Part shown: positions 17,559-56,541 of the stretch, piece after piece | Layout of the letters: each line of letters begins with the position of its first letter | Position numbering within the stretch: the first letter of the stretch is position 1 | From: Candidatus Saccharimonadota bacterium | GTDB lineage: Bacteria > Patescibacteriota > Saccharimonadia > Saccharimonadales > UBA4665 | Direction of reading: 5' to 3' | Length of the DNA stretch: 61,578 nt | Assembly (NCBI GenBank): GCA_029288425.1 | Contig: JARIHD010000094.1 | Location: forward strand, 1-61,578 | Translations under genes and position numbers: made by a program | Notes under the pieces: generated by a model | Seen by the model: only the letters and a program-made list of their open reading frames with translations | What the model was told of the DNA's origin: nothing | The model's database searches: none

Positions 17559-18254
17559 CTATCGATTCACCGTAAAGCTGGCGGATAAGTCATGTTGCGT
17601 ATGATCGTGTAGCGTGTGCGTACCTAGCTCCGTAAGAGTTATTATCATATTTCGTCCCGGACGAATATTCTTGCCGTCCTCGCCGGCATACGGTATCAAC
17701 ATTTCATGCGATCCGAATCTTATATCATGCGGGGCTGCGTCCAGGTTTATGATAGTCAGCGTATCGCACTGTTTTGCCTCGACATGATCTGGAATGGCCC
17801 TGTTATCTTTGAGCTCAACCTTGTAATTCTCACCCGTTCCATTGGCGCACGTACCGGTTGGCGTGCCCTGAATTTGATAGACACCTTCGTCTGACGCTAC
17901 TTTATCCCGTACATCAGTCGCGGACATATTGTAGTGGAGGTGGTGCATAATCCACAGCGACCCGACAACCACCATCAGAATGATACCGACAGTAGCAAGG
18001 AGGAAAATCAAATTCCAATGCGGTTTTTTCTCTCTGCCCAGATGCAGAAAAAATACGACCTGCACTATGAGCTGGAGTACCGCAAACCCGATGATCGTCG
18101 TGACGAGCACATTTCCTTCGAGGATCTTTTGAACAACCAGATAGTACGGAACGAGAGTGAAAATAAGTGATAGCAAAAATCCGATAACATACGACGCCAC
18201 GGTGCCGTGGTGAGGCTTATGGTTAGGTGCGGGAGTATGTATCATTTCGCTCAT
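17559..18254 (-). CDS. cyoD: Cytochrome bo3 quinol oxidase subunit IV with C-terminal cupredoxin-like domain
   Basis: 231 residues, about twice the usual 110. Residues 1-110 are a normal CyoD: a His-rich start, then three membrane segments (about 18-41, 47-70, 80-105) with LQLIVQVVFFLHLG and VGSLWIMHHLHYNM as family blocks. The remaining 120 residues are extra. With an N-in topology they would face outwards. They look like a cupredoxin fold: DTLTIINLDAAPHDIRFG with His176, and a C-terminal GTHTLHDHTQHDLSASFTV with His213, 216, 218 and 221 in place of the usual C-x-H-x-M copper loop. Cys136 and Cys163 are also present. Copper binding is inferred. The ATG overlaps the cyoC stop in ATGA, setting the start at 18254. 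Confidence 0.85.
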   Translation of the reverse strand: MSEMIHTPAPNHKPHHGTVASYVIGFLLSLIFTLVPYYLVVQKILEGNVLVTTIIGFAVLQLIVQVVFFLHLGREKKPHWNLIFLLATVGIILMVVVGSLWIMHHLHYNMSATDVRDKVASDEGVYQIQGTPTGTCANGTGENYKVELKDNRAIPDHVEAKQCDTLTIINLDAAPHDIRFGSHEMLIPYAGEDGKNIRPGRNMIITLTELGTHTLHDHTQHDLSASFTVNR

Positions 18255-18850
18255 GCAAACGCCATTAAGTACACTATGGTAAATATAAAGACCCAAACGA
18301 CGTCAAGGAAGTGCCAGAAAAGGCTGAGCAAGGTCAGTTTCCGCACCAGTGGTGCGTTGAGGCCGCGCTTCCAAATGAACACCAGGGCAGTCCCCATCCA
18401 TAATAGTCCCGATGTAATGTGTAATCCATGCGTGCCCACCAAGGTAAAGAAAGCAGAGAGGGAGGCATTGCTTCGCCAAGTGTAACCCTCGTGGATAAAT
18501 TCGGAGAATTCTTTTAGCTCTAGCCCGAGGAATGTTAGGCCAAGCAAAAATGTAATGCCAAACCACGTCAGTACCTGAACCTTGTCACCGCGCCCCGCCG
18601 CAAGCATACCCAAGCCGGCAGTAAAGCTGCTCGTCAGTAGGATAAGTGTTTCGGCTAAAGCAAGGGGCAGGCTAAAAAGCTCGTGGTATTCCGGGGTACC
18701 GAAGGTATTACTCCGGAGCACTGCAAATGTAGCGAACAGCACCGCGAACATCAGCAGGTCCGTCATCAGATATACCCAAAAACCAAAGCCTATCCTATCA
18801 TTGGCCTGGGCCTCGTGACTTTCAGCGACATGTCCTTGCTCAGTTGCCAT
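18251..18850 (-). CDS. cyoC: Cytochrome bo3 quinol oxidase subunit III
   Basis: 199 residues from ATG 18850, the usual length. Five membrane segments are visible, starting with GFWVYLMTDLLMFAVLFATF. Landmarks of heme-copper oxidase subunit III are LALAETLILLTSSFTAG, GLTFLGLELKEFSEFIHEG, SAFFTLVGTHGLHITSGLLWM and LFWHFLDVVWVFIFT, the closing WHFxDxVW motif. It stabilises subunit I at the membrane. It overlaps the end of cyoB by 11 bases and the start of cyoD by 4, so the operon is translationally coupled. Confidence 0.93.
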   Translation of the reverse strand: MATEQGHVAESHEAQANDRIGFGFWVYLMTDLLMFAVLFATFAVLRSNTFGTPEYHELFSLPLALAETLILLTSSFTAGLGMLAAGRGDKVQVLTWFGITFLLGLTFLGLELKEFSEFIHEGYTWRSNASLSAFFTLVGTHGLHITSGLLWMGTALVFIWKRGLNAPLVRKLTLLSLFWHFLDVVWVFIFTIVYLMAFA

Positions 18851-20933
18851 GCGACCTCCGTCTAATCCCAATGAGTCCCAATGCCCACGTTACAACGATC
18901 TTTATGAACTCCCAGAGGCCCATATCCTCGTCATCGTCACGGCCCTGCCGGGGCTCACTCCGAACATCTTTCAGCCGGTTCTTTTCAATCTTTTCCACTT
19001 CGGCCGCGCTAAGCGTATATTCCAGATCATCATTAAAAGTCCGGGCGATAAAGCATACTATTATACCGACAATACCGACCACGATCAGCCAGGTAATATG
19101 CCAGACGAACGCAAAGCTAGCCAGAAACGCGAATGCCGATATGTAGATGCCGGCCGCGGTATTTTTGGGCATATGAATAGCCTCGTATTTTGCGCGTGGC
19201 AGTCCACCACGCTGTTTAAATTCGAAAAAGGCGTCACGGGAAGTAATTTCTGGAATCACGGCCAGGTTATAGGGCGGAGGCGGACTTGAGGTGGCCCATT
19301 CCAGCGTCCGTCCGTCCCAGGGATCGCCAGTCGTATCCCGCAGCCGCTGTTTTTGCATAATGCTCGCAATAATCTGCACCAGCTGCAAAGCCACGCCAAT
19401 CATAATAATAATGCCGCCAATCAACATCAGCACATAAAATGGCTGCCAACCCGTCGAAGCGTCATAGTGGTCAAGCCGCCGTGTCGCGCCCATAATACCC
19501 AGCGTGTACATAGGAATAAACGACATCATAAAACCCACGATCCAGCACCAAAACGCATAGCGGCCAATGCGCTCGTTCAGTCTAAAACCGGCAATTTTGG
19601 GAAACCAGTAATTGATGCCGGCAAAAATACCGAACAGTACACCGCCGATAACCATAGTATGGAAATGCGCCACCAAAAACAGGCTATTGTGCAGCTGGAA
19701 GTCCGCAGGCGGTACAGCCAACAGAACGCCCGCCAAACCGCCCACTGAAAATACGCCAATAAACCCAAGAAACCACAGCATCGGCACACCAAACCGTATG
19801 CGCCCTTTATACATCGTAGCGATCCAGGTAAACACCAGCACCGACGTCGGTATGGCAATGATCATGGTCATAACCCCAAAGAACGCATTAACATTCGCGC
19901 CCGCACCCATCGTAAAGAAGTGATGCAGCCACACCGAAAGGGCAAACGCCGAAACGCCAAGCATGCCCAGGATATTTGACTTGTAGTAGGCCATGCGTTT
20001 TCTACTGAACGTAGAAACAATTTCCGAAAACACACCAAAAGCTGGCAGCATCAGAATATATACCTCCGGATGGCCCCACATCCAAATGAGATTAGTGTAC
20101 ATCATGGCGTTGCCGCCAAGATCGGTCGTAAAGAAATGCATGCCGAGATAGCGGTCAAAAAAGAGCAGAAAGAGCGTTGCGGTAAGCAACGGGAAAACCG
20201 TGACGGCCATAATCATACTGCACAGCGAGCCCCAGGTAAACAGCGGCATTTTCCAGAGTGTCATGCCCGGCGCGCGCATTTTTAGGATAGTCATAATAAA
20301 GTTGATCGCCCCCAGTGTGGTACCGATACCAGATACCTGCAAGCTCCATATCCAATAATCCACCCCGACTCCCGGACTAAATTGTGTCCCGGAAAGCGGA
20401 GCAATGGCTAGCCAGCCTGTCGCCGCGTACTCCCCCCCGAGGGCAAAGAACATGTTAACCATCACAACTCCGGCCACATACAGCCAAAAGCCCAAAGTAT
20501 TCAAAAACGGTGAAGCCAGGTCACGCGCGCCGATCTGCAGGGGAACGATGTAGTTTATGAGTCCAAAAATAAAAGCCATGGCCACAAAAAAGACCATAAT
20601 ATTGCCATGCGCCGTAAATATCTGCTGAAAGTGATCGGCAGAAAGATATCCGTACGAATCACCAGAGGAAAGCGCTTGCTGCAGCCAAATCATTATGGCA
20701 TCGAGGCCCCCGCGCAGCAGCATAAATCCGGCCACAATAAAATACATGATCCCAATCTTTTTGGGGTCTACCGAGGTAAGCCATTCTTTCCAGAGCCATG
20801 TCCAGCGTTTTTTCCAGGTAATCAAGCCAATGATCAGAGCTGCACCCAGAATAAATGCCGCTGTACCCCCGATAGTAAACCATTCGTGCGGCAGTGCGTG
20901 TGCGTCCAATTTACCTAAAAGAAATTCTTTCAT
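18840..20933 (-). CDS. cyoB: Cytochrome bo3 quinol oxidase subunit I (catalytic)
   Basis: 697 residues, co-linear with E. coli CyoB apart from small offsets. It reduces O2 to water with quinol electrons and pumps protons at the plasma membrane. Visible ligands are His109 and His425 (low-spin heme), His423 (heme O3), and His288, His337 and His338 (CuB), with the His288-Tyr292 pair in GHPEVY. Quinol-site residues Arg74, Asp78, His101 and Gln104 are kept. D-channel residues Asp138, Asn127, Asn145 and Glu290 are kept. The K-channel lysine is not: E. coli IPTGVK reads IPTSVL here, with Leu366 (codon CTG) at the Lys362 position. The acidic C-terminal extension ends in RRRSHGN. The start overlaps the end of cyoA. 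Confidence 0.95.
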   Translation of the reverse strand: MKEFLLGKLDAHALPHEWFTIGGTAAFILGAALIIGLITWKKRWTWLWKEWLTSVDPKKIGIMYFIVAGFMLLRGGLDAIMIWLQQALSSGDSYGYLSADHFQQIFTAHGNIMVFFVAMAFIFGLINYIVPLQIGARDLASPFLNTLGFWLYVAGVVMVNMFFALGGEYAATGWLAIAPLSGTQFSPGVGVDYWIWSLQVSGIGTTLGAINFIMTILKMRAPGMTLWKMPLFTWGSLCSMIMAVTVFPLLTATLFLLFFDRYLGMHFFTTDLGGNAMMYTNLIWMWGHPEVYILMLPAFGVFSEIVSTFSRKRMAYYKSNILGMLGVSAFALSVWLHHFFTMGAGANVNAFFGVMTMIIAIPTSVLVFTWIATMYKGRIRFGVPMLWFLGFIGVFSVGGLAGVLLAVPPADFQLHNSLFLVAHFHTMVIGGVLFGIFAGINYWFPKIAGFRLNERIGRYAFWCWIVGFMMSFIPMYTLGIMGATRRLDHYDASTGWQPFYVLMLIGGIIIMIGVALQLVQIIASIMQKQRLRDTTGDPWDGRTLEWATSSPPPPYNLAVIPEITSRDAFFEFKQRGGLPRAKYEAIHMPKNTAAGIYISAFAFLASFAFVWHITWLIVVGIVGIIVCFIARTFNDDLEYTLSAAEVEKIEKNRLKDVRSEPRQGRDDDEDMGLWEFIKIVVTWALGLIGIRRRSHGN

Positions 20934-21853
20934 TCGTGATGCGCCCCGTGATGCATATGACCCTCGGACCCGGACGGATCCATGTATTTCATAAGTACTT
21001 TATCATACATACCCGTTTCCGCGGCAGAGTAGAGTGCGCCTGGGTGGTTTTCACTCGGTTTTAAAAGCTTTTCATATTCGGCTGCGTCGAGCGGCCGCCC
21101 GGACGCCCGCACGGTATCTATCCAGCGACTAAAATCTTCACTGGAGCCGACCCGTGCCGTAAACTTCATGCCCGCGAATCCGGCACCGTTGATTTCTGCC
21201 GAACTGCCGGGGTAATCTCCAGGAGTATTCGCAATAAGATGTAATGTATTGCTATGACCGGTCATTGCATACAGCATGCCCGCCAGATTGGGCACCCAAA
21301 ACGAACTCATCGGCATTTCGTCGGCCGTCAACTGCAACCGGACCGGCGTGTCGACGGGAAGCTGCAAATGATTTATGGTTGCGATGTTTTGATCAGGATA
21401 GATAAAGAGCCACTTCCAGGGCAGTGACACGACTTGGACGGTGAGAGGCTTAACATCGGCCGCGATTGGTTTTTGCGGCTCTAGTTTATGAGTGGCAGGC
21501 CACATTATGAACGCAAGCAAGGCCATAAAAGTACTCGGGATCAGCCACATGCCCACAGCAAGCAACTTGCTATAGCGAACGTGAGGATCATGCATTGACC
21601 TGTGGTTCGACTCACGGTATTTCCATGCCGTCGAAAAAAGCAGGACAAGTGTTGGGACAGCAACGACTAGCAATAGCCCGCCCGTGACAAGCATCAGACG
21701 GAGCTGCTCGTGTGCAATCATTCCTCTGGGATGAAACAGGGCGACATTTTTGCCCTGCAGCAGAAACGCAACCAATAGCGCCAACCCCGCCAGCACCAGG
21801 ACGATGCTTCCTATCATCTTAACGTGGGTGTGTGTTTCTCTTTTTTTTGACAT
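20930..21853 (-). CDS. cyoA: Cytochrome bo3 quinol oxidase subunit II
   Basis: 307 residues from ATG 21853, preceded by GGGGG at 7 bases. An in-frame ATG at 21883 is an alternative. It has an N-terminal anchor, a second membrane helix and an outward cupredoxin domain. The CuA ligands of cytochrome c oxidases are absent: the loop reads EINGAGFAGMKF instead of CSxxCGxxHSxM, as in quinol oxidases. WKWLFIYPDQNIATIN and LQLTADEMPMSSFWVPNLAGMLYAM are CyoA blocks. There is no lipobox, unlike E. coli CyoA. The tail HMHHGAHHE is unusually His-rich and could bind metal. It is first in the operon cyoABCD; cyoE is separate, on the other strand. Confidence 0.92.
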   Translation of the reverse strand: MSKKRETHTHVKMIGSIVLVLAGLALLVAFLLQGKNVALFHPRGMIAHEQLRLMLVTGGLLLVVAVPTLVLLFSTAWKYRESNHRSMHDPHVRYSKLLAVGMWLIPSTFMALLAFIMWPATHKLEPQKPIAADVKPLTVQVVSLPWKWLFIYPDQNIATINHLQLPVDTPVRLQLTADEMPMSSFWVPNLAGMLYAMTGHSNTLHLIANTPGDYPGSSAEINGAGFAGMKFTARVGSSEDFSRWIDTVRASGRPLDAAEYEKLLKPSENHPGALYSAAETGMYDKVLMKYMDPSGSEGHMHHGAHHE

Positions 21854-21894
21854 CGGCCTGCCCCCAGCAGGAAATAAATGCATGCAATACTCAT

Positions 21895-21922
21895 ACTATA
21901 CACGACCGTCCCGCCGGGCGGG
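21895..21922 (-). promoter_or_regulatory. Candidate cyo operon promoter with GC-rich palindrome
   Basis: TATAGT (21895-21900, minus strand) lies 41 bases from the cyoA ATG. A perfect palindrome CCCGCC-G-GGCGGG (21910-21922) covers the expected -35 zone, where no consensus -35 is seen. It could be an operator, but the assignment rests on position alone. Confidence 0.3.
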
Positions 21923-22079
21923 AAGCAATAACAGCTCGCCGTCCCCATAAATAAACCGGATGGGCTCATCAAAAGTTAACGTGATTTTAAATACGTCAGG
22001 CTCGTGAGAAACTTTACAGTTGGCCTTCAGCTTCAAGTTCTACTATGAAAGGGCTGGTAACAGTAAGGGGGATTCTAAA

Positions 22080-22226
22080 ATGAAGAAAATTAAAATCCTG
22101 TCACATCCAACACAAATCTCAACCATCCAGTTGGATGACCTCGACTACAACACAAACCAACCCGAGGATAAAATAGCAAAGATGCAAATCCGCAAGTGGC
22201 GCCGCCTTCGCCAGCAAGCAATATAG
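22080..22226 (+). CDS. 48-residue hypothetical protein
   Basis: A short frame from ATG 22080, preceded by a strong AAGGGGG Shine-Dalgarno. The protein begins KKIKILSHPTQISTIQLDDL and ends in a basic helix (MQIRKWRRLRQQAI). It is followed after 47 bases by a good intrinsic terminator, which supports a real transcript. It lies between the divergent cyoA and cyoE genes. The basic tail might bind nucleic acid or membrane. No family is recognised. The frame is open upstream to 22020, but the ribosome site favours 22080. Confidence 0.55.
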   Translation: MKKIKILSHPTQISTIQLDDLDYNTNQPEDKIAKMQIRKWRRLRQQAI

Positions 22227-22273
22227 ACCGCCGCCGGACAGCATAATTCGCTACAATACAACTCGAAAACACC

Positions 22274-22309
22274 GAACGGACTTCCCTGAAAAGGGATCCG
22301 TTCTTTTTT
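22274..22309 (+). terminator. Intrinsic terminator after the 48-residue ORF
   Basis: The stem pairs 22274-22280 with 22297-22303 and 22283-22286 with 22293-22296, with a 2-base bulge, loop TGAAAA and a following run of six T. Confidence 0.82.
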
Positions 22310-22353
22310 AGGTGTCCTGGCCCCCGACATAGCAAATACAGACGGGCGTATGG

Positions 22354-22359
22354 TATATT
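22354..22359 (+). promoter_or_regulatory. -10 box of the cyoE leader ORF
   Basis: TATATT ends 8 bases before the ATG at 22368, placing the predicted transcript start at or beside a 12-codon ORF. Confidence 0.4.
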
Positions 22360-22367
22360 CGAAGTAG

Positions 22368-22406
22368 ATGCTTGAGCTTCCCGAAAAAGAAGAAAATTAC
22401 CGCTAA
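22368..22406 (+). CDS. Putative 12-residue leader peptide ahead of cyoE
   Basis: The frame reads MLELPEKEENYR then TAA, and cyoE starts 3 bases later. The ATG sits 8 bases past a -10 box, the same geometry as the leaderless genes in this window. cyoE itself has only a weak GAAGAA-type ribosome site. Translation of the leader could therefore deliver ribosomes to cyoE by reinitiation. No run of one amino acid or attenuator hairpin is visible, so a regulatory role is not shown. Confidence 0.4.
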   Translation: MLELPEKEENYR

Positions 22407-22409
22407 ACC

Positions 22410-23270
22410 ATGGAAACACTACGGACGTATTACTACCTGACCAAACCCGGCATTGTCTATGGGAATACGTTGACCGTGATCGGCGGCTTTTTATTCGCTT
22501 CAGCTGGCCGCATAGATTTTTCGCGGCTACTCAGCGTGGTGATTGGCACGGCCCTAGTGATCGGAAGCGGCTGCGTTTGCAATAACTATATCGACCGCGA
22601 ACTTGATAAAAAAATGGCCCGCACAAAAAAACGGGCGCTCGTAACGGGAGTAGTCTCGGGACAGAGTGCACTCCTTTATTCAGCAATCCTCGGCGTATTG
22701 GGTGTTGTGACACTATATCTATTGGCAGGCGCGCGTACAGCAGGCTTGGCCGTATTCGCCTGGTTTATGTATGTCGTCGTATACGGTATCGCCAAGCGCC
22801 GCAGCGTTTATGGCACACTCGTTGGCAGCATTTCCGGAGCTATGCCAGTGGTTATTGGTTATAGCGCTGGAGCGGCCGCCCTGGGTACCCCGGCCGGATT
22901 ACTTTTCCTGATTATGGCCTTATGGCAGATGCCGCACTTCTATGCCATCGCCCTGTACCGTCGGAATGAGTATGCGGCTGCAAATCTGCCCGTATTATCG
23001 GTTAAAGCCGGCGCGCTGACCAGCAAGGTCAATATCGTGGGCTACGTGCTGCTGTTTATCGCGGCCAATTTTTTGCTCTTCAGCGAAGGGTATGCGGGCC
23101 TGACATACGGTATTATCATGACAACTCTCGGACTCGTATGGTTGTGGCAGGGTAAACAAGGCTTTGGCGGGAAAGATGACGCGGCATGGGCTAAAGACAT
23201 ATTTTTCTTTTCGCTTATCGTACTGATGGGGTTCAGCGTACTGATTTCACTTAATCCATGGCTGCCTTAG
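22410..23270 (+). CDS. cyoE: Protoheme IX farnesyltransferase (heme O synthase)
   Basis: 286 residues, a UbiA-superfamily prenyltransferase that adds farnesyl to heme B to make the heme O needed by the bo3 oxidase. It begins YYYLTKPGIVYGNTLTVIGG. The first Asp-rich motif is NNYIDRELDKKMARTKKRALVTG (N-x-x-x-D-x-x-x-D) and the second region is MPHFYAIALYRRNEYAAANLPVLSV. Eight or nine membrane segments are visible. It is on the strand opposite cyoABCD, rather than last in the same operon as in E. coli. It is preceded by a possible leader peptide 3 bases away. Confidence 0.92.
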   Translation: METLRTYYYLTKPGIVYGNTLTVIGGFLFASAGRIDFSRLLSVVIGTALVIGSGCVCNNYIDRELDKKMARTKKRALVTGVVSGQSALLYSAILGVLGVVTLYLLAGARTAGLAVFAWFMYVVVYGIAKRRSVYGTLVGSISGAMPVVIGYSAGAAALGTPAGLLFLIMALWQMPHFYAIALYRRNEYAAANLPVLSVKAGALTSKVNIVGYVLLFIAANFLLFSEGYAGLTYGIIMTTLGLVWLWQGKQGFGGKDDAAWAKDIFFFSLIVLMGFSVLISLNPWLP

Positions 23271-30864: not shown

Positions 30865-32064
30865 ATGACAAAAGACAAAACACGCGTATTAGTCGTGGGT
30901 GGTGGATTTGGCGGCATAAAGGCAGCGCTCGAACTGGCCGGCAATGACCGAATCAACCTGACGCTGCTTTCGGATCACGATAGTTTTTATTACTATCCGA
31001 CGCTATACCATACGGCCACCGGCGGCGCAGAAGCCCAGTCCAAATTGCCGTTATCGCGCATTTTTGAAGGTAAAGACCTGACGATTATCCACGGCAAAGC
31101 ATCACACCTCGACCGCAAAAAGAAAGCCATCCTGACCGAGGACGGCAAGGCCTATCCTTATGATATTCTCATTTTATCACTCGGCTCCAAACCCAACTAT
31201 TTCGGCATTGAAGGCATTGAAAAATATTCATACAACATCGTAACACCCGATAACGCACTGCGTTTCAAAAACCATCTGCACGAACAGTTGACGAGCAAAC
31301 GTCAGCCCGACTTAAATTACCTGATTGTAGGCGGCGGCCCCACCGGCATTGAACTGGCAGGCGCGCTTACCGGCTACTTGGAAGAAATCATGCACGCCCA
31401 CGGCATGCCAAAGCGCAAAGTGCACGTTGACTTGATCGAAGCCGCTCCCAAGCTGGTTCCACGCATGCCTGACCGCATGTCCCGTGCCATCGCCGGCCGG
31501 CTAAAGCGCCTGGGAGTTCGCCTGTACTGTGGCCGGATGGTCGAAGGCATGACTGCCGATACGCTCACCGTTAACGGCAAACCCATCCAAAGCCATACGG
31601 TCGTTTGGAACGCCGGCACCACTACTAGTTCATTCTATAAAGAGAACGATTTTGTCATGGGTGAGCGGGGCAAGGTAGCTGTCGATGAATATTTACAAGC
31701 CGAACCGGACGTCTACGTCATTGGTGACAATGCTGCTACCGAATACAGCGGAATGGCGCAGACTGCACTGTACGATGGTCACTATGTTGCAGCTAACATT
31801 GAGCGGCATATCGAAGGCCGGCTGATGAAACGCTACACACCCAAGCGCCCCATCTATGTTATCCCCGTAGGGCACAACTGGGCCGCGGTACTCTGGGGCA
31901 ACATGCAAATATACGGTTTACCGGGCTGGCTGCTGCGCCTGGCCGCCGATATGGTGGGATTCAAAGACTACGAACCCTGGTGGCGCGCTACCAAACAATG
32001 GATGACTGAATTCCAGACCGAAGAAAGCTGTTCCACCTGTGCAAAACATCTGCAAAAACCCTAA
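30865..32064 (+). CDS. ndh: Type II NADH:quinone dehydrogenase
   Basis: 399 residues with two Rossmann folds: FAD-binding GGGFGG at residues 12-17 and NADH-binding VGGGPTG at about 155-161. The second FAD block is VYVIGDNA. DSFYYYPTLYHTATGG and the EYSGMAQTALYDGHYVAANI region are typical of NDH-2. It oxidises NADH and reduces membrane quinone without pumping protons, as a peripheral membrane protein. The C-terminus ends in an amphipathic stretch plus a CSTCAKHL tail whose CxxC is unusual. It supplies quinol for the bo3 oxidase in this window. It is leaderless, with a TATAAT box 7 bases upstream. Confidence 0.9.
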   Translation: MTKDKTRVLVVGGGFGGIKAALELAGNDRINLTLLSDHDSFYYYPTLYHTATGGAEAQSKLPLSRIFEGKDLTIIHGKASHLDRKKKAILTEDGKAYPYDILILSLGSKPNYFGIEGIEKYSYNIVTPDNALRFKNHLHEQLTSKRQPDLNYLIVGGGPTGIELAGALTGYLEEIMHAHGMPKRKVHVDLIEAAPKLVPRMPDRMSRAIAGRLKRLGVRLYCGRMVEGMTADTLTVNGKPIQSHTVVWNAGTTTSSFYKENDFVMGERGKVAVDEYLQAEPDVYVIGDNAATEYSGMAQTALYDGHYVAANIERHIEGRLMKRYTPKRPIYVIPVGHNWAAVLWGNMQIYGLPGWLLRLAADMVGFKDYEPWWRATKQWMTEFQTEESCSTCAKHLQKP

Positions 32065-53631: not shown

Positions 53632-54303
53632 TTATTTCTTGCGGGCAGGAGTGACCGCTTTGACCGGCCTTTCGACCAGTGAGGCGGCAGGCGCAAAGAG
53701 CAAGCTGTACAGGTTAAACCCAATGATACCACCAAGGATCGGACCGAGCACAAATGTACCCCACACCCATGACTGTGCACCCAAGGCGACGGCCGGGTTA
53801 ACGATTCCACCGGCGCCAGCAGCTGACACGAGCACACCGAGCATCAGTGACATACCAACGGTTGCGGCAGCGCGTCCACCTTCCAGTTTCTGGAAGACAG
53901 TGGCAGCCCAGCCAAGGCTAAAGATAAAAGCACCGACGGCTTCGGCAACCAAAACGCGGGCTTCAAAACTACTGTGAGTGTTGCTCCAGGTTTGACCTAC
54001 AAAATAGGTAAAGAGCCAGTAGGCGGCAATACCGCCAAGGAACTGGGCGGCCAGGTACACAATAGCAGGCAATATTTTAATGCGACGAACTGTCCAGAGG
54101 CCAATGGTTACCAATGGATTGAGGTGCGCGCCGGAAACGGCGCCGAGCGTCAGGGTGACCGTCGCCACAACCAACCCGGCCGCAATGGCCACAAAGTAAG
54201 GAATACCGATAGTCGACTTACTGACGGCCAGCACAGCCAGCGTCAAAAGTGCGGTTCCCAAAAACTCCGCCAGTATCATGGCGACTTTTTTTCTTGTTAG
54301 CAT
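53632..54303 (-). CDS. Aquaporin/MIP-family channel with altered filter
   Basis: 223 residues with six membrane helices and two half-helices, as in aquaporins. The first half-helix motif is SGAHLNPLVT (NPL rather than NPA). The second is GIVNPAVALG, where the Arg that normally follows NPA (NPAR) and forms the selectivity filter is Val (codon GTC). LAEFLGTALLTLAV and AQFLGGIAAYWLF are standard blocks. Loss of the Arg suggests passage of something other than water, such as a small neutral solute. The Shine-Dalgarno GGAGG precedes the ATG. It is monocistronic. The C-terminus is basic (VTPARKK). Confidence 0.88.
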   Translation of the reverse strand: MLTRKKVAMILAEFLGTALLTLAVLAVSKSTIGIPYFVAIAAGLVVATVTLTLGAVSGAHLNPLVTIGLWTVRRIKILPAIVYLAAQFLGGIAAYWLFTYFVGQTWSNTHSSFEARVLVAEAVGAFIFSLGWAATVFQKLEGGRAAATVGMSLMLGVLVSAAGAGGIVNPAVALGAQSWVWGTFVLGPILGGIIGFNLYSLLFAPAASLVERPVKAVTPARKK

Positions 54304-55207: not shown

Positions 55208-56074
55208 CTAGAAATAGCTTTCTTCGACTTGGGTGCCGTGAGCCGTTGGCACGACATGCAAGAATTTTATCTCTTTGCCTGTGCATACCACAGTCCTGGT
55301 GGCTGCCGAACGCAGGAGCAGTGCGGCAAGGCGCAATTCTTTAACCTCTCGGGACATGCCGCGCATATCACTCAAATTGTGCACCGATGCATACACATTG
55401 TCATGATAGGCGTGAATTTGTAGCTTTTGCTCGCCGCGATGTACTTCCTGACGCTTAAGGCCGATGCGAGGATGATGATTCAAGATATAGAATCCTGCCT
55501 GGTTTTCACCGACCATCGGCGCTACATTGTCCTGATGGGGGTAAAGTTTATCTGCGTAGGCCAGAAAAGCATCCGGATCATAGTTTGGTTTACTGTCGCG
55601 TATTCTCTTGGCCGCATCCTGAATCTGCTTTATAAGCGATCTGACGCGAGCATCCTCAAGACCATAGCGCCCTATGAAATCTCGAAGAATATCCATTGTC
55701 TGGTCCCTGGGATTAATGATTTCACCGTCGACCGCAGACATCCCTTCATTATATAAACAGCTGGGGTGAGCGCCATCGGATTGTGTCGAGCTTTGCAGCC
55801 TGCTGTGGTATTCCATGCCTTCTTCGACGGTATAGATCCGACCATCTTCGTCATTGGCTGTCAGGGCAAGGCTCGCGTCTTTGCCCTTACCGATAAGCGC
55901 CCCCGGCGTTTGGCATATAACTTTTAATTGCAGACGCTCTTCATCACGAGGGTCAATACATCCTATTGGCAGCTGATGCTCGGAGGTAAGCTCAAAGGCC
56001 GCATACGAGTGCGGGTTCATAAAGAAGTCATAGCTGCGGCCCATTTCTACGGTATCAGATAGAACATTACTCAT
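55208..56074 (-). CDS. Protein with beta-carbonic-anhydrase-type metal motif
   Basis: 288 residues, soluble. Residues 38-43 read GCIDPR, giving Cys39-x-Asp41-x-Arg43, and residues 103-106 read HPSC, giving His103-x-x-Cys106. The C-x-D-x-R and H-x-x-C pair is the zinc site of beta-carbonic anhydrases (E. coli Can uses Cys42, Asp44, Arg46, His98, Cys101), and the spacing is close (64 against 56 residues). Other conserved blocks of that family are not evident, so it may be a distant homologue with another function. The C-terminal half (GFYILNHHPRIGLKRQEVH) is not recognised. It lies next to the atp operon, separated by 44 bases from atpC, but has its own TATAGT box 10 bases upstream. Confidence 0.5.
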   Translation of the reverse strand: MSNVLSDTVEMGRSYDFFMNPHSYAAFELTSEHQLPIGCIDPRDEERLQLKVICQTPGALIGKGKDASLALTANDEDGRIYTVEEGMEYHSRLQSSTQSDGAHPSCLYNEGMSAVDGEIINPRDQTMDILRDFIGRYGLEDARVRSLIKQIQDAAKRIRDSKPNYDPDAFLAYADKLYPHQDNVAPMVGENQAGFYILNHHPRIGLKRQEVHRGEQKLQIHAYHDNVYASVHNLSDMRGMSREVKELRLAALLLRSAATRTVVCTGKEIKFLHVVPTAHGTQVEESYF

Positions 56075-56118: not shown

Positions 56119-56541
56119 TTATCGGCGGTGGCGACGGCGCAAGCCGGCAACCTGTAAACGCACGGTGGTGCGGTCGACCAAAGCCTGGGCTTTGTCCAGT
56201 TCGACCTGGTCCTTGGCGTTTTTGCGGAGCTCCAGAGCGGCCTGGTGGGCCTTTTCAGCTTCGGCTTCGTTAATTTCGTCGCCATGCGTGGCTTCGTCTA
56301 CCAATACGCGGACGCCTTCTTTACCCACTTCGAGCACGCCGCCATTTGTCGCGTAATGCTCAAGGTGCGTGTCAAGATCACTTTTTTCGCGTCGGACTAC
56401 AATAACGCCGGGAATTACCACCCCTAAAAGAGGTTCGTGTCCCGGCATAATCGTCACCTGGCCGGCAGCGGTCGGCAGTACGATCGAGTATGCGTCGGCG
56501 CTAAATTTTACGCCGTCTAGCGAAACTAGTTGGAAATTCAT
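56119..56541 (-). CDS. atpC: ATP synthase F1 subunit epsilon
   Basis: 140 residues. The N-terminal beta-barrel domain has FQLVSLDGVKFSADAYSIVLPTAAGQVTIMPGHEPLLGVV and HYATNGGVLEVGKEGVRVLVDEA. The C-terminal helical hairpin (INEAEAEKAHQAALELRKNA) is present and ends in a basic RRRHRR. It couples the rotor to the gamma subunit and can inhibit ATP hydrolysis. It is last in the operon. The ATG overlaps the stop of a small ORF of unknown function (ATGA), not atpD as usual. Confidence 0.93.
   Translation of the reverse strand: MNFQLVSLDGVKFSADAYSIVLPTAAGQVTIMPGHEPLLGVVIPGVIVVRREKSDLDTHLEHYATNGGVLEVGKEGVRVLVDEATHGDEINEAEAEKAHQAALELRKNAKDQVELDKAQALVDRTTVRLQVAGLRRRHRR

Follow-up and report, generated by a model that had tools for sequence, protein, structure and literature searches.

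A divergent zeta-carbonic-anhydrase-like protein encoded close to an aquaporin-family channel gene in Saccharibacteria

Saccharibacteria are small (ultrasmall) bacteria of a mostly uncultivated lineage, and a contig from one of them raises the question of whether a protein without any database name could be a carbonic anhydrase, and if so, of which class. The stretch analysed, referred to here as the window, comprises 61,578 nucleotides. On its minus strand (55208..56074) lies a reading frame, P0001, that starts with ATG and is open throughout its 288 codons. It has no Pfam match up to E 10, and NCBIfam likewise names nothing. An earlier note, written from the DNA letters alone, had pointed to two short motifs that recall beta carbonic anhydrases, and both are found exactly where they had been placed. 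The codons C39-I-D41-P-R43 (55946..55960, minus strand) would provide a first metal ligand and an Asp-Arg dyad, and H103-P-S-C106 (55757..55768, minus strand) presumably the second and third ligands. As had also been said correctly, the same residues stand at 42/44/46 and 98/101 in Escherichia coli Can, with a distance from cysteine to histidine of 64 residues in P0001 and 56 in Can.

Short motifs of this kind can be accidental. HPSC is the sole HxxC within P0001, and among 300,000 shuffles of the protein 72 contained a CxDxR followed 45-80 residues later by an HxxC. At this rate (about 2.4e-4 per protein), a bacterial proteome of about 1000 proteins could contain one such pair by luck. The pair is thus uncommon by composition yet not impossible, and it proves little alone. 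That the motif is real follows from the conservation of the ligands across family members: C39, R43, H103 and C106 are found in all seven homologues and D41 in six of the seven, so this check, which the earlier note had called for, speaks for its proposal. A chance motif in an unrelated protein, which the shuffling rate alone would have allowed, was rejected on this conservation; as homology to other proteins also persists with the motifs masked (see below), we give it next to no chance.

The seven members of the P0001 family come from the genome of the window (G000) and from G031, G148, G430, G428, G007 and G036. Whole-genome searches found the family in 6 of the 93 genomes of the window's own taxonomic family, and G036 is one further genome from the same order. 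A search of 392 genomes gave six matching genomes; the match in G210 is a gene of the CDCA-like family described below and was excluded from the count of seven. Among 379 genomes sampled across the phylum, the window's own was the single one to match the P0001 family. The member of G007 is split over two contig-end pieces; it was counted once and omitted from the tree. Relatives were absent from the viral contigs, plasmids and phages searched, and carriage of the family by phages or plasmids was rejected on this ground. P0001 shares 23-38% identity with the other rows, and judged by this alignment the family evolves fast. Invariant in all seven aligned rows are C39, P42, R43, G58, G62, D66, H103, C106, N199, G205 and R208, and the one exception at D41 is a glutamate in G036. 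The strict HxxC spacing is kept in only four of the seven members: G007 and G428 have HxxxC, and in G036 a long insertion breaks the spacing and makes the placement of the histidine ambiguous. A family-specific motif, Y223-H224-D225 (55400..55408, minus strand), is invariant in the four full-length members (alignments A5/A7) and is present in G036 and G428 too.

The most obvious candidates for kinship are the beta carbonic anhydrases (E. coli Can and CynT; PF00484), which have the ligand set, the Asp-Arg dyad and the HxxC spacing in common with P0001. P0001 is longer and presumably two-lobed, and no profile similarity to these enzymes could be detected. The comparison with beta-carbonic-anhydrase profiles that the earlier note had proposed went against a beta assignment: the P0001 family scored 18.6 against eight beta enzymes, which lies inside the range of 60 shuffles (top 21.3), and P0001 carries the CxDxR and HxxC motifs without a Pro_CA profile match. 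Membership in the beta class was rejected, as the profile comparison stays within shuffle noise. A beta-type enzyme was found in 0 of the 93 genomes of the group, where the search control was positive in 9 of 14 genomes, and the window's own genome gave no Pro_CA match either. One could still argue that P0001 is a true beta enzyme that has diverged past recognition, considering that both motifs and a cysteine-to-histidine spacing near that of Can are present. Given the lack of a Pfam match, the score within the shuffles, the HxxC spacing in only four of seven members and the strong homology to a different family, we consider this very improbable.

This different family is a second, commoner one of Saccharibacteria, which usually adjoins the relatives of P0001 and has the motifs C-x-D-G-R, H and CG. 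With a four-row profile (A4) it was found in 38 of the 93 genomes, a number that is a lower bound, and later HMM checks revealed divergent genes at L016, L064, L069, L074, L077 and L084 that this census had missed. An alignment of 22 of 30 loci (A9), which leaves out L026, L031, L032, L034, L035, L039, L043 and the broken frame of L033, shows the residues Cys, Asp, Gly, Arg, His and Cys to be invariant. Nineteen of these 22 proteins match Pfam CDCA at E <= 0.1 (best 4.1e-12), and a PDB search with the family profile, up to E 1, gave nothing but three CDCA sequences from diatoms (best 4e-6). This second family therefore consists of bacterial proteins related to zeta carbonic anhydrase, and we call it CDCA-like. 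Against the eight beta enzymes its profile scored 22.5, slightly more than the highest of its own shuffles (21.5). In some databases, bacterial proteins of this kind already bear the label cadmium carbonic anhydrase. Of the 379 genomes sampled from the phylum, 8 were matched by the 22-row profile, six of them from the same order and two with weak partial matches elsewhere, and a CDCA-like query found no relatives in viral contigs. Up to E 10, the 22-row profile found nothing in the genome of the window, and the four-row profile found nothing in G031; a search of the window genome with Pfam CDCA was also without a match, but as its control was likewise unmatched this carries no weight. Two members deserve mention for their state: in G259 an in-frame stop divides the gene (L033:1483-2493) into two ORFs, and the very divergent neighbor in G428 (L016:339-1391), missed by the four-row profile and found by the 22-row HMM, has an HxxC.

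Several comparisons connect the P0001 family with the CDCA-like proteins. When it was aligned to the 22 CDCA-like proteins with hhalign, the probability was 97.4 and the E value 9.1e-12, with the C, D, R, H and C residues in register and a homology that spans about 240 residues. The profile-profile score of 90.1 compares with a maximum of 22.2 in 100 column shuffles and with 11.7 for the reversed alignment. With both motifs masked the score was still 58.1 (E 1.2e-7), and the homology is therefore independent of the motifs. Single sequences were also recognized across the family border, as the P0001-family HMM picked up L020's CDCA-like ORF at 5.3e-9 and, conversely, the G036 member of the P0001 family was picked up by the CDCA-like HMM at 8.6e-7. 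In an unguided MAFFT alignment of six sequences from both families, C39, D41, R43, G58, G62, H103, C106, G189 and N199 were invariant. The earlier view that the remainder of the protein does not resemble a carbonic anhydrase was thus mistaken, given this homology to a zeta-type family. Its broader proposal, a divergent metal enzyme of the carbonic-anhydrase type, is well supported, with the correction that the kinship is to zeta and not to beta enzymes.

The homology includes a presumed second-lobe motif, G189-ENQAGFYILNHHPRIGLK-R208 (55451..55510, minus strand), in which N199, G205 and R208 are kept in all seven members. In the hhalign alignment this segment pairs with the G-x-H-x-E...N-x-x-P segment of the CDCA-like family, which itself matches CDCA structures. 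The length of 288 residues fits the two-lobe CDCA repeat, which is described as a mimic of the beta-carbonic-anhydrase dimer (PMC4413181).

How close P0001 stands to the zeta enzymes proper can be stated more precisely. Neither P0001 nor the family profile directly matches Pfam CDCA, and the family profile finds no CDCA chain in the PDB up to E 10, so that, at the level of profiles, the link to zeta CDCA runs through the intermediate CDCA-like family. Compared with CDCA1 of Thalassiosira weissflogii, the Cd/Zn zeta enzyme (PF18484), P0001 has two cysteines, one histidine and Asp-x-Arg in the same Cys...Asp-x-Arg...His...Cys order, and via the CDCA-like family also a PGG-like loop and the second-lobe segment. 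It differs in that it lacks a direct profile or structure match, comprises a single domain where CDCA1 has three repeats, reads DPR in place of DGR, and has a histidine-to-cysteine gap of 3 instead of the 10 in the CDCA chain compared. To the CDCA-like proteins of A9 it is linked by the homology described, by ligands in register and by the same locus next to a MIP gene, but it has CxDPR and HxxCL where these have CxDGR, the CGA/CGG motifs and a long His-to-Cys loop, and it falls on a separate branch. In a 30-row tree the P0001 family (six members) is split from the 24 CDCA-like rows with a branch support of 100/100; the branches between them are long (1.77 and 1.54 changes per column), as are several rows. 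The family of P0001 thus constitutes a divergent branch on the zeta side and does not belong to the beta enzymes. Structure prediction added little to this picture: AlphaFold models built with 4 and 6 alignment rows were poor (mean pLDDT 52.6 and 42.2), the ligand residues fall in stretches of pLDDT < 50, and a fold search with the first of these models (mean pLDDT 52.6) gave no hit at E <= 0.001.

What would such a protein do? Zeta and beta enzymes are described (PMC4413181, PMC13144422) as holding their metal with two cysteines and one histidine, next to an Asp-Arg dyad. By this chemistry P0001 should bind zinc or cadmium and hydrate CO2, and a metal-dependent CO2-hydrating enzyme is most likely, where we infer metal, ligand geometry and activity from the conserved residues. 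In the proposed mechanism, a single Zn(II) or Cd(II) ion would be coordinated by C39, H103 and C106, D41 in its pair with R43 would orient and deprotonate the metal-bound water, and the resulting hydroxide would attack CO2 to give bicarbonate. We think it probable that P0001 acts as a soluble metalloenzyme of this zeta/beta type with two lobes, that it hydrates CO2, and that it belongs to a fast-evolving branch apart from the ordinary CDCA-like proteins. A site like the one presumed for P0001 is found in DabA2 of the vectorial CO2-hydration complex DAB2, where an Asp-Arg dyad accompanies a zinc bound by Cys2His (PMC13144422); DabA2 also shows that having the complete site does not guarantee free hydration of CO2. 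Its partner is a subunit of the proton-antiporter type, whereas P0001 has no such neighbor in the window. Among the relatives inspected, G031 has a complex-I/hydrogenase-4-like operon (L050:7082-12604) downstream of its family member, whose other neighbor is atpC; this operon encodes NuoB-, NuoH- and proton-antiporter-type subunits, and the MIP gene is found farther along.

A relative of P0001 directly adjoins a CDCA-like ORF in five of the seven genomes (G148, G430, G036, G007 and G428), and with such a neighbor present the P0001 family could have another role. One such role would be that of a former zeta-carbonic-anhydrase duplicate that has kept its metal but has a different small electrophile as its substrate, such as COS or CS2, with the CDCA-like neighbor remaining the carbonic anhydrase. 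The side-by-side genes, the fully supported separation by long branches, the proline that replaces the glycine beside the dyad (CxDPR versus CxDGR) and the YHD motif would all suit a change of substrate. On the other hand, the window genome and G031 lack a CDCA-like match, which would leave them without a detected carbonic anhydrase (the searches covered the beta and zeta classes), and no sulfur or cyanate genes were recognized by eye near P0001 in the window. We regard this duplicate as unlikely. The tandem arrangement could also mean that P0001 is a non-catalytic or regulatory subunit that forms a heteromer with the CDCA-like protein. This is decidedly improbable, because all the metal ligands are kept in all seven members, which would be unusual for a dead partner, and because two genomes have a member of the family without a detected partner. 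A CO2-hydrating enzyme thus remains our preferred reading of P0001.

In the window, the minus strand carries, in this order, atpC, P0001, P0002 and the gene of a MIP channel. The gene atpC (56119..56541), named by eye from its ORF, encodes the ATP synthase epsilon subunit as the last gene of the upstream operon and stands at the same place in relatives. P0002 (54412..55098) is an orphan ORF of 228 codons that occupies the spot beside P0001 where relatives carry their CDCA-like neighbor. It has no Pfam, NCBIfam or CDCA-like similarity, and the idea that it is a degenerate CDCA-like gene was rejected for that reason; in the 93 genomes only its own copy and one match of E 9.7e-4 with internal stops were found. 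The channel (53632..54303; PF00230, E 2.4e-23) belongs to the aquaporin family and has the motifs NPL/NPA, with a selectivity filter read as A-V-G-V and hence without arginine. Each of the 30 distinct MIP proteins from loci L018-L047 has V, I or L directly behind the second NPA, which in one of them reads NPG, and of a wider set of 62 MIP rows, some of them duplicates, only four have the filter arginine, namely E. coli AqpZ, GlpF and the GlpF-type extra copies of L061 and L062. Among the 30 loci around the best CDCA-like matches (L018-L047), some of which stop at contig ends, MIP is present in 28 and atpC in 18 within about 1.5 kb. The MIP family is nearly universal (86 of 93 genomes), and at least nine loci (L065, L070, L072, L075, L080, L081, L083, L089 and L090) have atpC and MIP with no carbonic-anhydrase-like gene detected in between. 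The association therefore reflects a shared slot and does not prove a functional pair.

Aquaporins and carbonic anhydrases have reportedly been studied in frog oocytes for a synergy in CO2 diffusion (PMC12871926), and from its position the arginine-less channel may supply or release the CO2 for P0001. As a tentative and somewhat doubtful extension, Saccharibacteria might possess zeta-type carbonic anhydrases of their own, encoded in a fixed slot beside a MIP channel that passes CO2 and not water, with the P0001 family as a new, faster-evolving sub-class with a beta-like HxxC that is paired with the channel for CO2 capture or release. If these proteins are active, the pairing of an odd aquaporin with a carbonic anhydrase becomes directly testable.

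Searches of the open-licence PubMed Central literature found no title or abstract that deals with a zeta enzyme of Saccharibacteria, and the word "anhydrase" is absent from the main text of the Saccharibacteria/CPR genome papers PMC6031116, PMC8407418 and PMC12592800. A minireview counts zeta among the classes scored by Pfam in prokaryote genomes and finds it less abundant in Archaea (PMC10880623), so that bacterial zeta-type genes as such appear not to be unheard of. A 2026 survey reports many genomes without a recognized carbonic anhydrase, and zeta and other rare classes mainly in diatoms and protozoa (PMC13098186). Saccharibacteria, with a beta enzyme found in none of the 93 genomes, have a zeta-like family and in addition the more divergent P0001 branch. 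Active proteins of these two kinds would fill part of the carbonic anhydrase gap and carry the range of the zeta class far into the bacteria, and if the reading of an own zeta type is true, surveys would score Saccharibacteria as lacking the common carbonic anhydrases.

Some minor observations concern the remainder of the window. A scan for promoters and terminators gave results near chance level. By eye, a cytochrome bo3-type oxidase operon (17559-23270) and an NDH-2-like ORF (30865-32064) were recognized, both as described for soil Saccharibacteria.
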